Positions 20,063 through 25,116 of a stretch of 34,806 nucleotides of DNA are shown piece after piece. A program made the position numbers and the translations under genes. Numbering within the stretch: position 1 is the stretch's first letter; each line of letters starts with the position of its first letter. A model generated the notes under the pieces. It searched no databases. It worked only from the letters and a program-made list of their open reading frames with translations, and had not been told where the DNA came from. The DNA comes from Planctomycetota bacterium (GTDB taxonomy: Bacteria; Planctomycetota; Planctomycetia; Planctomycetales; Planctomycetaceae). Where the stretch lies: the NCBI GenBank assembly GCA_018242565.1, contig JAFEBR010000740.1:1-34806 (forward strand), written 5' to 3'.

Positions 20063-21463
20063 TTATTTTTTCCGCGCCGGCGCGTCGGCACCGGCGGTTG
20101 GCGATTCGAGCTGAATCTGAGTGAAGATGCCGATCCGGGCGTCGTGCAGTCGGCGTAACTGCATGGCGAAATACTCGTCGGAGGCAAAAAAGAAGCCGGT
20201 GTGGCGTTTGACCAGTTCGGGGAGCGGGACTCCCTGCGAAATCTCTTGAGCCAGGGCCTCGGCATGTTCCTTGCGAGGGGCGGTTGTGGACCAGCCGGCA
20301 ACCACATAGGCCGGATACAGCAGGAATTGGACGACACACAGACCGGCGGTAACGATGTGCTTCCAGCGGTCGGGGGCGCACCGCACGGCCGCCAGGTAAA
20401 TCGCCACCAGGAGTGGGCAGATTAACGTGAAATACCGCGCCGCCAGGACGGCGCGTTCTCCCATTCCGGAACGGCCCCAGGCGATGGCGGCCGCCAGTCC
20501 CAGGTGGGCAAGCAGGACGAGGGCGACGCCGAAGCGGGCTAATCGGCTGGAACGTGATTGATCGGTTCCATGCCAGAGCCACCACAGTGCGGCCGCCGAG
20601 AGTGTCAGGCTCAACAGGGCCACGGGATACCCGATGACACGCACAATGGCGCCGAATGCCATTCCAAATTCCAGAATCACATGGCGGACCAGCAGTCCTT
20701 TATCGGTCGCGGCGGGGTGCAACGCGGCCCGGGGGACATACGTCAGCAGACACTCCACCGGGATGATCAGCAACAGCGCCAGAGCCAGGACTTGAGTGCC
20801 CCGGGAAACGGGAGTGCGATAGTCGTGCTTCCACCAGACACAGGCGGCAAAAAACGGGGCGAGGGCCAGACCGCAGGCAATTCCTGCCGCGGAACAGAGT
20901 GGCCAGAGGGCCAGCATCAGTCCCAGGCAAATGAGTCGCGACTTGGTGGGGCGTTCGCAATCGGCAAACAGGGCCGCCGCCAGGCAGCCAAAGCAACCGG
21001 CGATGACCAACTGCACCTGGAACGACATCACCAGATTCGCGGCGTGGCCCCAATTGAGCAGTAGCGCGGGAAAGAAGGCGTCGCTCCAGACCCACGTTCC
21101 GCGAATTCGTCGAATCAGCCACAACAAGCCGGCGCTGGTGGCACTCATGAGGGCCCAGCTGAGAAACATACCCGCGCGAAATTCGTGGCCCGTCAGTCGG
21201 TCGAGTCCAATCAGAATCAAGCGGGGGATGAGAATGCGATGTTCGTTATGCGGCGCCCAGAGTGTCTGCCAATTGATGGGGCGCTCGCCGGTCAGGAACG
21301 GCACGACGCCGTCCCATTCATCCCAGAATGGAACCCGGATTCCGAACCACAGAATCAAGCCCCCCGTCAACAATGTCAAAGCCGCCCACGACAGCCAGAC
21401 AAACCAGGTGGTGCGGGCCGGTGTGGTGGAGAGGGATTGAATGCGAGGCGCAGTTGCAGACAT
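20063..21463 (-). CDS. Polytopic membrane protein, possible GT-C-type glycosyltransferase
   Basis: A 466-residue membrane protein with about ten hydrophobic segments: about 20-42, 100-115, 130-150, 150-168, 178-200, 222-242, 270-290, 300-318, 335-352 and 370-388. The first external loop holds the acidic motif VPFWDEWDGV (about 44-53), a pattern like the catalytic Asp-rich loop of GT-C glycosyltransferases such as PMT/ArnT-type enzymes. The C-terminal 80 residues (KEHAEALAQEISQGVPL, then FFFASDEYFAMQLRRL) look soluble. A GT-C assignment rests on this motif and topology only. Another function is possible. It has no close operon partner. Confidence 0.75.
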   Translation of the reverse strand: MSATAPRIQSLSTTPARTTWFVWLSWAALTLLTGGLILWFGIRVPFWDEWDGVVPFLTGERPINWQTLWAPHNEHRILIPRLILIGLDRLTGHEFRAGMFLSWALMSATSAGLLWLIRRIRGTWVWSDAFFPALLLNWGHAANLVMSFQVQLVIAGCFGCLAAALFADCERPTKSRLICLGLMLALWPLCSAAGIACGLALAPFFAACVWWKHDYRTPVSRGTQVLALALLLIIPVECLLTYVPRAALHPAATDKGLLVRHVILEFGMAFGAIVRVIGYPVALLSLTLSAAALWWLWHGTDQSRSSRLARFGVALVLLAHLGLAAAIAWGRSGMGERAVLAARYFTLICPLLVAIYLAAVRCAPDRWKHIVTAGLCVVQFLLYPAYVVAGWSTTAPRKEHAEALAQEISQGVPLPELVKRHTGFFFASDEYFAMQLRRLHDARIGIFTQIQLESPTAGADAPARKK

Positions 21464-21779: not shown

Positions 21780-21808
21780 TTGACCTGTTTTGGAATCGCC
21801 GATATTTT
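21780..21808 (+). promoter_or_regulatory. Sigma70-type promoter for a candidate small RNA
   Basis: TTGACC (21780-21785), a 17-nt spacer, then TATTTT (21803-21808). This is a strong match to the sigma70 consensus with ideal spacing. No plus-strand protein gene follows. The only downstream feature is the terminator ending at 21923. Transcription should start near 21815. Confidence 0.65.
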
Positions 21809-21814
21809 CCCGCC

Positions 21815-21923
21815 CACACTTGACGCAGCAAACGCAGCAACAAGTGATTAACAAGCCAATCGCCCCGGAAGTAGTGGATGTCCTTTGCCCCCCTGGGACC
21901 CGCTGCTTCCGGGTGTTTTTTTT
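21815..21923 (+). ncRNA. Candidate small RNA of about 109 nt
   Basis: A promoter at 21780-21808 points into this stretch, which ends in a strong intrinsic terminator. CCCGGAAG (21864-21871) pairs with CTTCCGGG (21906-21913), and the stem extends inward by about ten more pairs, including G-U pairs, to a C-rich loop (TTTGCCCCCCT). Eight T residues (21916-21923) follow. The 5' part contains a perfect tandem 9-mer, ACGCAGCAA, at 21823-21831 and 21832-21840. The C-rich loop could pair with G-rich ribosome binding sites, as in several known regulatory RNAs (inference). It does not match 6S, SRP RNA or tmRNA signatures. It is convergent with the phosphodiesterase gene. Confidence 0.55.
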
Positions 21924-21946
21924 GCGCGGGCCCAAATCGCATCGGG

Positions 21947-22453
21947 TCAACCGACCGAAGATCCGGAGTCAACGACCTGCAGGTGGGTGACACCGAGATC
22001 GTCGAGATCCACGATGGCAATCGTGCGCGGGTTGGCGCGATAGAGCGCACCGGGATTCAGCACCAGCGTGCGCCCGACCTGGTGGTATTCCGGGACATGA
22101 GTGTGGCCGTAACACACGAGGTCCCACTGACCGCTCTGAATGGTCTGTTCAAACAGATCCCGGTCGTCGCTGTGCAGCCAGGCGATTTTTCTCCCGCCGA
22201 GGTCGAGTGAGCCAAATCGGTCGTGGCAGGTCAGCCCGCACATTTCGATGGCGTCGCGAAGTTCCCGTTCGTCGTAGTCAACATTTCCGAACACGAAATG
22301 GGCCGGCCAGCGGGCAAACAGCGAGACGATGTCTGGTGAACCCAGGTCCCCGCAATGCAAGACCGCGGACACGTCTTGCTGCTCGAGGATCCGAACCGCC
22401 GCGGCCGTTGAGCCCAGGTGCCCATGTGTATCGCTGACAACGCCAAGGCGCAT
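21947..22453 (-). CDS. YfcE/MJ0936-type metallophosphoesterase
   Basis: A 168-residue cytoplasmic calcineurin-like phosphodiesterase, matching the usual YfcE length. The two-metal site is complete: Asp8 and His10 (SDTHG), Asp36 (HCGD), Asn57 (FGNVD), His94 (LHSDD) and His117/His119 (YGHTHV). The family hydrolyses phosphodiester bonds in vitro. The physiological substrate is not known. It is preceded by 203 nt with no gene and followed by the small-RNA locus on the other strand. Confidence 0.92.
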   Translation of the reverse strand: MRLGVVSDTHGHLGSTAAAVRILEQQDVSAVLHCGDLGSPDIVSLFARWPAHFVFGNVDYDERELRDAIEMCGLTCHDRFGSLDLGGRKIAWLHSDDRDLFEQTIQSGQWDLVCYGHTHVPEYHQVGRTLVLNPGALYRANPRTIAIVDLDDLGVTHLQVVDSGSSVG

Positions 22454-23452: not shown

Positions 23453-24466
23453 TTACCGTCGAAAACACTCACGCGCCAGTGCCAGTGCGCCGTGGATGAC
23501 GACCTCTTCGCCAAGTGCCGCGGGGACGATCGCCGCGATGTTGGCAAACGGTTCAAACACTTCAGCGCGGCAGGCTGCGCGGACGGGCTCAAAGAACAGT
23601 GTTTCCCCCAACAGCGAGACACCGCCACCAATCACGATCCGGGCCGGGTTAATCAGCGAAATCGCCTGAGCCAGGGCCCAACCCAGCGTACTGGTGGAGT
23701 CCGCGAGTAAGTCCTGGCTCAATGGATCGCCTTGTGCGGCGGCCTGCCCGATCATACGGGCGGTGATGCGTTGCACATCGCCTTCTGCCAGCTGCAACAA
23801 CCGTTCGATTCTCACCGGAGTTTTTGATGACGCACTGGCCGGGTGTGTCGCCAGTGCTTCGGCAATCGCCTGTCGGCAGCGGTACTCCATGCCGAATCCC
23901 GAAGCGATCGACTCGACCGTGCGCCCGGGAACATTCACGCGGAACGGACGGGGGCCCGGGCGCAGGTGACCGATTTCGAGGGCCCCGGCTCCGCTTCCCC
24001 GAAAGATCTGGCCGTGTTCAATGAGACCTCCGCCGATGCCCGATCCCACGGTGACATACATCACCGGATCGAAGCCACGCCCGGCTCCGAAATGTGCTTC
24101 CGCGTAAGCGGCCGTATCGGCGTCATTATGCAGAATGGCGGGCCAGCCGAATTGCGTCGAGATCCATTCGACCAGGGGAAAACTCCCCCAGCCGGCCACC
24201 TGATTGCTGGTCACCACGCGGCCGGCCTGGGTATCGACGGGGCCGCCGAACCCAATGCCAACGCCCACGATCTGGTTCCGTTCCAGCCCCGACTGTTTCA
24301 GCAATTCATCGACGCCCGCGATAATCTGCTGCTGGATGCGCTCGGCTCGCTGAGACGCATCAATGGCGCCGCGCCAGAAAGCACGGCACGGTTCGCCAGA
24401 GCCGTGCCCAATGGCGATTTGCAGTTTCGTGCCACCGATTTCAATTCCGAGGTACCAGCCTGACAT
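23453..24466 (-). CDS. ROK-family sugar kinase-like protein without the zinc motif
   Basis: A 337-residue ROK protein with an actin-like ATPase fold. Visible are the phosphate loop GIEIGGTKLQ (7-16), GIGFGGPVD, the catalytic NDAD with TAAYAEA, the glycine-rich VGSGIGGGLI and EIGHLRPG. The usual zinc-binding CxCGxxGCxE segment is replaced by a stretch with no cysteine (PFRVNVPGRTVESIASG), keeping only the glutamate. There is no N-terminal helix-turn-helix, so it is a kinase type and not a NagC/Mlc-type repressor. It follows the SIS-domain isomerase by eight bases, so the pair is an operon and the substrate is probably a sugar or sugar phosphate made or used by that enzyme. Confidence 0.9.
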   Translation of the reverse strand: MSGWYLGIEIGGTKLQIAIGHGSGEPCRAFWRGAIDASQRAERIQQQIIAGVDELLKQSGLERNQIVGVGIGFGGPVDTQAGRVVTSNQVAGWGSFPLVEWISTQFGWPAILHNDADTAAYAEAHFGAGRGFDPVMYVTVGSGIGGGLIEHGQIFRGSGAGALEIGHLRPGPRPFRVNVPGRTVESIASGFGMEYRCRQAIAEALATHPASASSKTPVRIERLLQLAEGDVQRITARMIGQAAAQGDPLSQDLLADSTSTLGWALAQAISLINPARIVIGGGVSLLGETLFFEPVRAACRAEVFEPFANIAAIVPAALGEEVVIHGALALARECFRR

Positions 24467-24474
24467 TGGGTCGC

Positions 24475-25116
24475 TCAGGAGGCTTTGAAGACAGCGGTCT
24501 TGTGGGTGCTGTTGTCGTACCGGCCGACGTGGTTGACGCGGCCGTACAAATCATTGAGAACCCAGTGAAAGACGGTGAGATGCACACACTCGACCATCCC
24601 CATATCCCACAGGGGGACGTGCAGGCTTTTCGTTGCCAGCTTAAGCAACTTGCCCCCATCGTAGCCGGTCACACCCCAGGTGGTGATTCCATGAGCATTC
24701 GCCCATTCGACGGCTTTGAGGACATTGGGGCTGTTGCCACTGCCGCTGATGGCGACGAGCATGTCACCAGAACTTCCGTAGTTCTTCAGTTGCTCAACAA
24801 ACACCCGGTCGAAGCCTTCGTCGTTGCCCCACGCCAGAATGTTGGGCGTGTTATCGGTCAGGCTGAGGATTTTCAGACGCCGGGCCTGGTCGTTGGTGAA
24901 GTCCTCGCGCTTCAGCGTGTTTTTCCCGGCGTCGGCACAGAAGTGCGAGGCGTTGGAACCGCTACCACCGTTGCCACAGACAAACACGAACTTCTGATTC
25001 TTCCAGGCGGCGTACATATCGGACGCCAGACCTTCTAACTGCGAAAGATCGAGCGTTTGAAAGACTTCCGAACAACGCTCGAGGTACTCTTTTGGATTTA
25101 GCTCTGCACCCAACAT
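24475..25116 (-). CDS. GmhA-like SIS-domain phosphosugar isomerase
   Basis: A 213-residue SIS-domain protein close to GmhA, which converts sedoheptulose 7-phosphate to glycero-manno-heptose 7-phosphate. Features are [19 protein letters not shown] (phosphate loop, His58 and Asp62), [27 protein letters not shown] (about 123-136) and the C-terminal pair His179/His184 in ECVHLTVFH. GmhA normally has Glu and Gln at the positions of Asp62 and Glu176, so two metal ligands are conservatively altered and the substrate may differ. It is first in an operon with the ROK gene. An inverted repeat lies 28 nt upstream of its start. Confidence 0.85.

Follow-up and report, generated by a model that had tools for sequence, protein, structure and literature searches.

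The 6C/B11 RNAs of mycobacteria and other actinobacteria carry loops of about six C, and 6C, which has two C loops, reportedly acts independently of RNA chaperones, going by the title of Mai et al. 2019. McaS and GadY of E. coli combine base pairing with CsrA binding and act with Hfq; CsrB has about 18–22 CsrA sites. CsrB/CsrC and RsmX/Y/Z bear the CANGGANG / CAGGAUG motif in hairpin loops; the consensus published for RsmE/CsrA is CANGGANG, and RNAs selected with CsrA mostly display the motif in a hairpin loop of six nucleotides (PMC6849547, PMC7652899). CsrA, which has glgC as its classic target in E. coli, is antagonised by a base-pairing sRNA that contains two or more GGA motifs (PMC7652899). 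The C-rich loops of 6C/B11 act on a G6 tract in the 5′ UTR of eccB4 in M. abscessus (PMC10470900), and the Alpha-r14/cuckoo RNAs and suhB (mmgR) of alphaproteobacteria also have a C-rich motif in their hairpin loops (PMC10746234). The Rhodopirellula-1 motif (Weinberg 2010) is listed without an Rfam accession (PMC2864571).

We analysed a stretch of 34,806 nucleotides from a Planctomycetota bacterium (hereafter the window), in which positions 21780–21923 very probably constitute a real small-RNA gene. Its RNA family is undescribed in Rfam and in the open-access literature searched: Rfam models gave no credible match in the window or its relatives at gathering or relaxed thresholds, and the open-access papers yielded no description of an sRNA family or a CsrA decoy from planctomycetes. 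The RNA resembles 6C/B11 in its loop of about six C. However, it has one C loop, inside the terminator hairpin, instead of the two of 6C; it belongs to another phylum; and its longer relatives bear CsrA-type sites. Because the two-loop arrangement is lacking and the 6C model gave no gathering match in the window or relatives (nor, in the region, any match up to E = 10), the RNA falls outside the 6C family. The chaperone independence reported for 6C is nevertheless expected here, as no Hfq was detected. The suhB model scores 12.1 bits against a cut-off of 41. The Alpha-r14/cuckoo motif CCUCCUCCC is a true anti-Shine-Dalgarno sequence, whereas the planctomycete loop GCCCCCCU does not complement AGGAGG.

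Organization of the locus

The initial annotation described a promoter TTGACC-17-TATTTT, about 109 nt to a long stem with eight U, and no protein gene after the promoter. All of these elements lie where it placed them:

21780–21808, plus strand: promoter TTGACC-17-TATTTT, then CCCGCC (read from the sequence; promoter kept upstream of homologs)
21815–21923, plus strand: predicted short-form small RNA, ~109 nt (start placed from the −10 box)
21823–21840, plus strand: tandem ACGCAGCAA ×2, present in the window, not conserved, probably incidental
21856–21863, plus strand: conserved unpaired CCAATCGC directly 5′ of the stem (alignments A1 and A2)
21864–21913, plus strand: conserved terminator hairpin CCCGGAAGTAG...CTGCTTCCGGG, inner stem GTCCT/TGGGAC (17 pairs, covariation)
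21887–21894, plus strand: apical loop GCCCCCCT, the least variable element (alignments A1 and A2)
21916–21923, plus strand: eight T, intrinsic terminator end (read from the sequence)
21924–21927, plus strand: GCGC directly past the U-tract, conserved in homologs

The −35 box TTGACC (21780–21785) and the −10 box TATTTT (21803–21808) are separated by a 17-nt spacer, and a start ~7 nt past the −10 box would give a transcript of ~109 nt up to the last T of TTTTTTTT (21916–21923). Among the open reading frames of the window, none is likely to be a protein gene overlapping the candidate RNA, and both neighbouring genes run on the minus strand: 20063–21463 encodes a 466-aa protein without an NCBIfam match, and 21947–22453 a YfcE-type phosphodiesterase. 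Farther away, the minus-strand frames 23453–24466 and 24475–25116 resemble, by eye, a sugar kinase of the ROK type and a sugar isomerase with a SIS domain.

Within the 13 kb around the locus, we counted 2 promoter-like sites (3.0 expected by chance) and 15 terminator-like sites (13.8 expected). Because each feature is at chance level, the window sequence alone is no proof of a gene; the combination is lifted above chance because it is conserved in relatives. The tandem ACGCAGCAA, which had been proposed as a second contact, fared differently: the repeat is absent from a homolog of the same genus (L002) and from the other homologs compared, and a role as a contact site is not supported.

Conservation of the hairpin and distribution of the family

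The plus strand of segment 21810–21925 folds at −46 kcal/mol (z = −4.2), a value equalled by 0 of 200 shuffles, while the minus strand of the same segment gives z = −0.7. Among 84 aligned members, pairing is kept in 93.5% of cells over 17 stem pairs, and eight pairs are altered on both sides, with a covariation of 0.235 versus 0.109 for shuffles that take no account of relatedness among members. The covariation suggested for a search in related planctomycetes is thus present. The C-rich terminator loop singled out by the initial annotation is the most constant part of the conserved hairpin: five or six C followed by T occur in every row of the BLAST-derived alignment A1, which is unbiased in this respect, and the loop is near-invariant in A2, which was partly collected with a pattern containing the loop and is therefore biased on its constancy.

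The GCGC past the U-tract is conserved DNA outside the predicted RNA end (51/82 homologs versus 2.3 expected), and this counts against our preferred explanation because a plain terminator has no need of it. A pairing of CCAATCGC with this GCGC was considered and rejected, as no covariation is visible by eye and AATAGC variants retain GCGC.

When 59 genomes were searched at the DNA level, the region was recovered from most of those in the same family. Matches extend to ~25 other genomes, down to E ~1e-3, and beyond the genus only the hairpin and the sequence closely adjoining it align. The hairpin model R1, a covariance model built from 20 of these hits, matches 142 of 170 same-family genomes, nearly always with one copy each, and 142 of the 258 genomes sampled from the class. 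About one in six of the 170 family genomes has no R1 match, and in both the family and the class sets the match is missing from some near-complete genomes. One complete genome (G121:C1) carries four copies of the hairpin RNA, at 443332, 2948732, 3286754 and 5929275; other genomes have one.

When named genomes were scanned with a pattern, nearly all hits were in planctomycetes (Planctomycetaceae, Schlesneria, Fuerstiella, Pirellulales, Thermogutta and Blastopirellula marina), with a few record titles naming other or unspecified bacteria. One sequence labelled as an archaeon (L110) fits the scan pattern and fails the model, and is regarded as a chance match. The pattern has no match in viral contigs, which leaves a viral origin unsupported.

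A promoter of the form TTGAC-16/18-TAnnnT lies within 600 nt upstream in 80 of 84 homologs, and within 250 nt in 45 of 83 (shuffle mean 3.2, maximum 7). Promoter and stem, whose absence from relatives was to have told against the gene, are thus both conserved. The genes adjoining homologous RNAs vary between loci, and two apparently conserved ‘proteins’ (clusters 0 and 1 of the neighbour comparison) proved to be the translated RNA itself. The conserved promoter and terminator hairpin bear out the initial proposal of an independent plus-strand sRNA gene with its own promoter; 21780–21923 on the plus strand is a conserved, structured and probably independent RNA gene.

Short and long forms

Two forms differ in how far the −35 box lies from the modelled hairpin region. 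This distance is ~45–160 nt in the short form, which comprises the window and other members of its family, and ~180–405 nt in the long form, which comprises members of other families together with some of the same family. The predicted RNA is ~110 nt long in the short form and roughly 200–370 nt in the long form, with ~310 nt predicted for Blastopirellula marina. Because all sampled members outside the family are long where a promoter is present, the long form is probably ancestral.

The 5′ part of the long form is rich in the CsrA/RsmE site CANGGANG: 75 sites occur in 51 of 52 RNAs, one to three in each, against a shuffle mean of 4.6 and maximum of 10. In the strand comparison, 77 sites are in sense, 0 in antisense and 2 in equal lengths of upstream DNA. 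Long forms of the Pirellulales type have a 5′ domain hairpin GUCYGCA...UGCGGAC and a second hairpin with a C-ANGGAN-G hexaloop, whose closing C-G is invariant and whose stem covaries. Run on the 258 genomes, a model of this 5′ domain (R2) has nearly all its strong matches immediately 5′ of an R1 hit; the window's genome has no R2 match. Only one of 21 short forms has a CANGGANG site, and the window's own RNA contains neither CANGGANG nor a GGA loop. Because of this missing site, CsrA binding is not directly applicable to the window RNA, which, on its sequence, does not qualify as a CsrA decoy of known type.

The long form thus carries CANGGANG / ANGGA in hairpin loops, as CsrB/CsrC and RsmX/Y/Z do, but it has one to three sites instead of many, and a near-invariant C-loop terminator; the window form is site-free. 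By analogy, McaS and GadY may be its nearest models, being base-pairing sRNAs that bind CsrA, although they have no sequence relation to it and the window form lacks GGA-loop sites.

CsrA, Hfq and glgC

The csrA gene was found in all 59 relatives' genomes searched, and the window's genome (G000) has 11 csrA matches. CsrA-like matches number 2–16 per planctomycete genome among the relatives. Hfq (PF17209) gave no match at E ≤ 0.1 in G000, which is 97% complete, with positive controls; an Hfq-dependent trans-acting sRNA was rejected on this basis.

The glgC gene (glucose-1-phosphate adenylyltransferase) lies near the RNA in 19 of 84 loci and is convergent with it in 18, mostly within ~210 nt and in several families. 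This adjacency stems from common descent of one locus and does not represent repeated, independent events; in the window, glgC does not adjoin the RNA. Most glgC leaders beside the RNA (L003, L041 and others) have ANGGA near the start codon, which may mean little because GGA is found in Shine-Dalgarno sequences anyway. Because long forms carry CsrA sites and often adjoin glgC, the CsrA/glycogen regulatory circuit may include this family as a component so far missed. Neither the long form with its CsrA-type sites nor the glgC neighbourhood figures in the initial annotation.

Candidate targets of the C-rich loop

The loop had been supposed to pair with ribosome-binding sites. In four genomes, AGGGGGGC followed by ATG gave 66, 37, 8 and 4 hits versus 58, 37, 24 and 11 for a composition-matched control, and was thus not enriched. 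The 103 places with the loop complement and ATG are mostly not at plausible gene starts, and those with the longest complementarity (L250 and L252) precede open reading frames of 1 and 7 codons, which are not gene starts. Specific pairing with ribosome-binding sites was not borne out, and the search for the loop complement before ATG yielded no targets; because the loop-complement sites are not enriched near ATG, antisense action via start sites lacks positive support.

One orthologous gene in two congeners (L299 and L334) keeps AGGGGGGCCTGTG in a G-loop hairpin directly before its start; CACAGGGGGGCCTGTG, likewise kept directly before the start in both, is one base pair from identical. From its sequence, it is a possible C-loop target, as a hint only. 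Its product has a TAT-like signal and, by eye, is DUF1501-like.

Possible functions of the RNA

On balance, sequence and analogy favour an Hfq-independent C-loop antisense sRNA whose long relatives are also CsrA decoys. The sigma-70-type promoter would produce a free, stable RNA of ~110 nt, and its C6 loop would serve as the seed for antisense pairing with G-rich mRNA stretches without Hfq, as in mycobacterial 6C/B11. In long-form relatives, the ANGGAN hairpins would bind CsrA, making the RNA a CsrA decoy or a CsrA-controlled sRNA that plausibly touches glycogen (glgC) genes. The short form of the window would then retain the C-loop module alone, its CsrA module having been lost. It is conceivable, though we hold this more tentatively, that the whole class shares a two-module family with a CsrA-decoy 5′ domain and a C6-loop antisense terminator hairpin, ancestrally convergent to glgC, from which the window lineage dropped the CsrA module.

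The presence of CANGGANG on one strand of 51 of 52 long forms, the many csrA copies and the glgC beside the RNA could also mean that the RNA is mainly a CsrA decoy of the CsrB/RsmY kind, with a 3′ hairpin that is a protective terminator, a C loop that is structural or protein-binding and a short form that is a degenerate remnant. We consider this rather unlikely: one to three sites per RNA are few for a sponge, and in many genera the site-less short form has preserved its promoter, its stem and loop and CCAATCGC, unlike a remnant. It is likewise unlikely, and slightly more so, that the partner of the C-loop hairpin is a protein or the ribosome instead of mRNA, in a housekeeping or structural RNA. 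The extreme conservation of the loop, the single copy, the conserved promoter and the lack of enrichment of mRNA sites would fit such a role, but Rfam gave no match to a known housekeeping RNA family and the RNA is absent from some near-complete genomes.

That the hairpin is merely a conserved transcription terminator or attenuator of adjoining genes is very improbable, despite its classic stem and U-tract and its convergence to glgC in many loci. Terminator loops are normally unconserved and this one is near-invariant; besides, 80 of 84 homologs have their own promoter upstream, and the neighbours vary. Chance features in intergenic DNA would account for the chance-level numbers of promoter-like and terminator-like sites in the region, but family-wide conservation and covariation refute that explanation, to which we assign a negligible probability. 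Our preferred reading remains the C-loop antisense sRNA.

Implications for planctomycetes

Planctomycetes have many CsrA copies, yet we found no CsrA antagonist RNA described for them in the open-access literature. If the more tentative two-module reading is true, this would be the first Csr-antagonist RNA proposed for the phylum, in bacteria whose genomes have as many as ~16 CsrA matches and, in the one genome tested, no detectable Hfq. The family offers testable RNAs in cultured species such as Blastopirellula marina DSM 3645 (locus L118), with a loop that can be mutated and a candidate protein partner. If some lineages have indeed lost the CsrA module, they would illustrate how evolution can take a dual-function sRNA apart.
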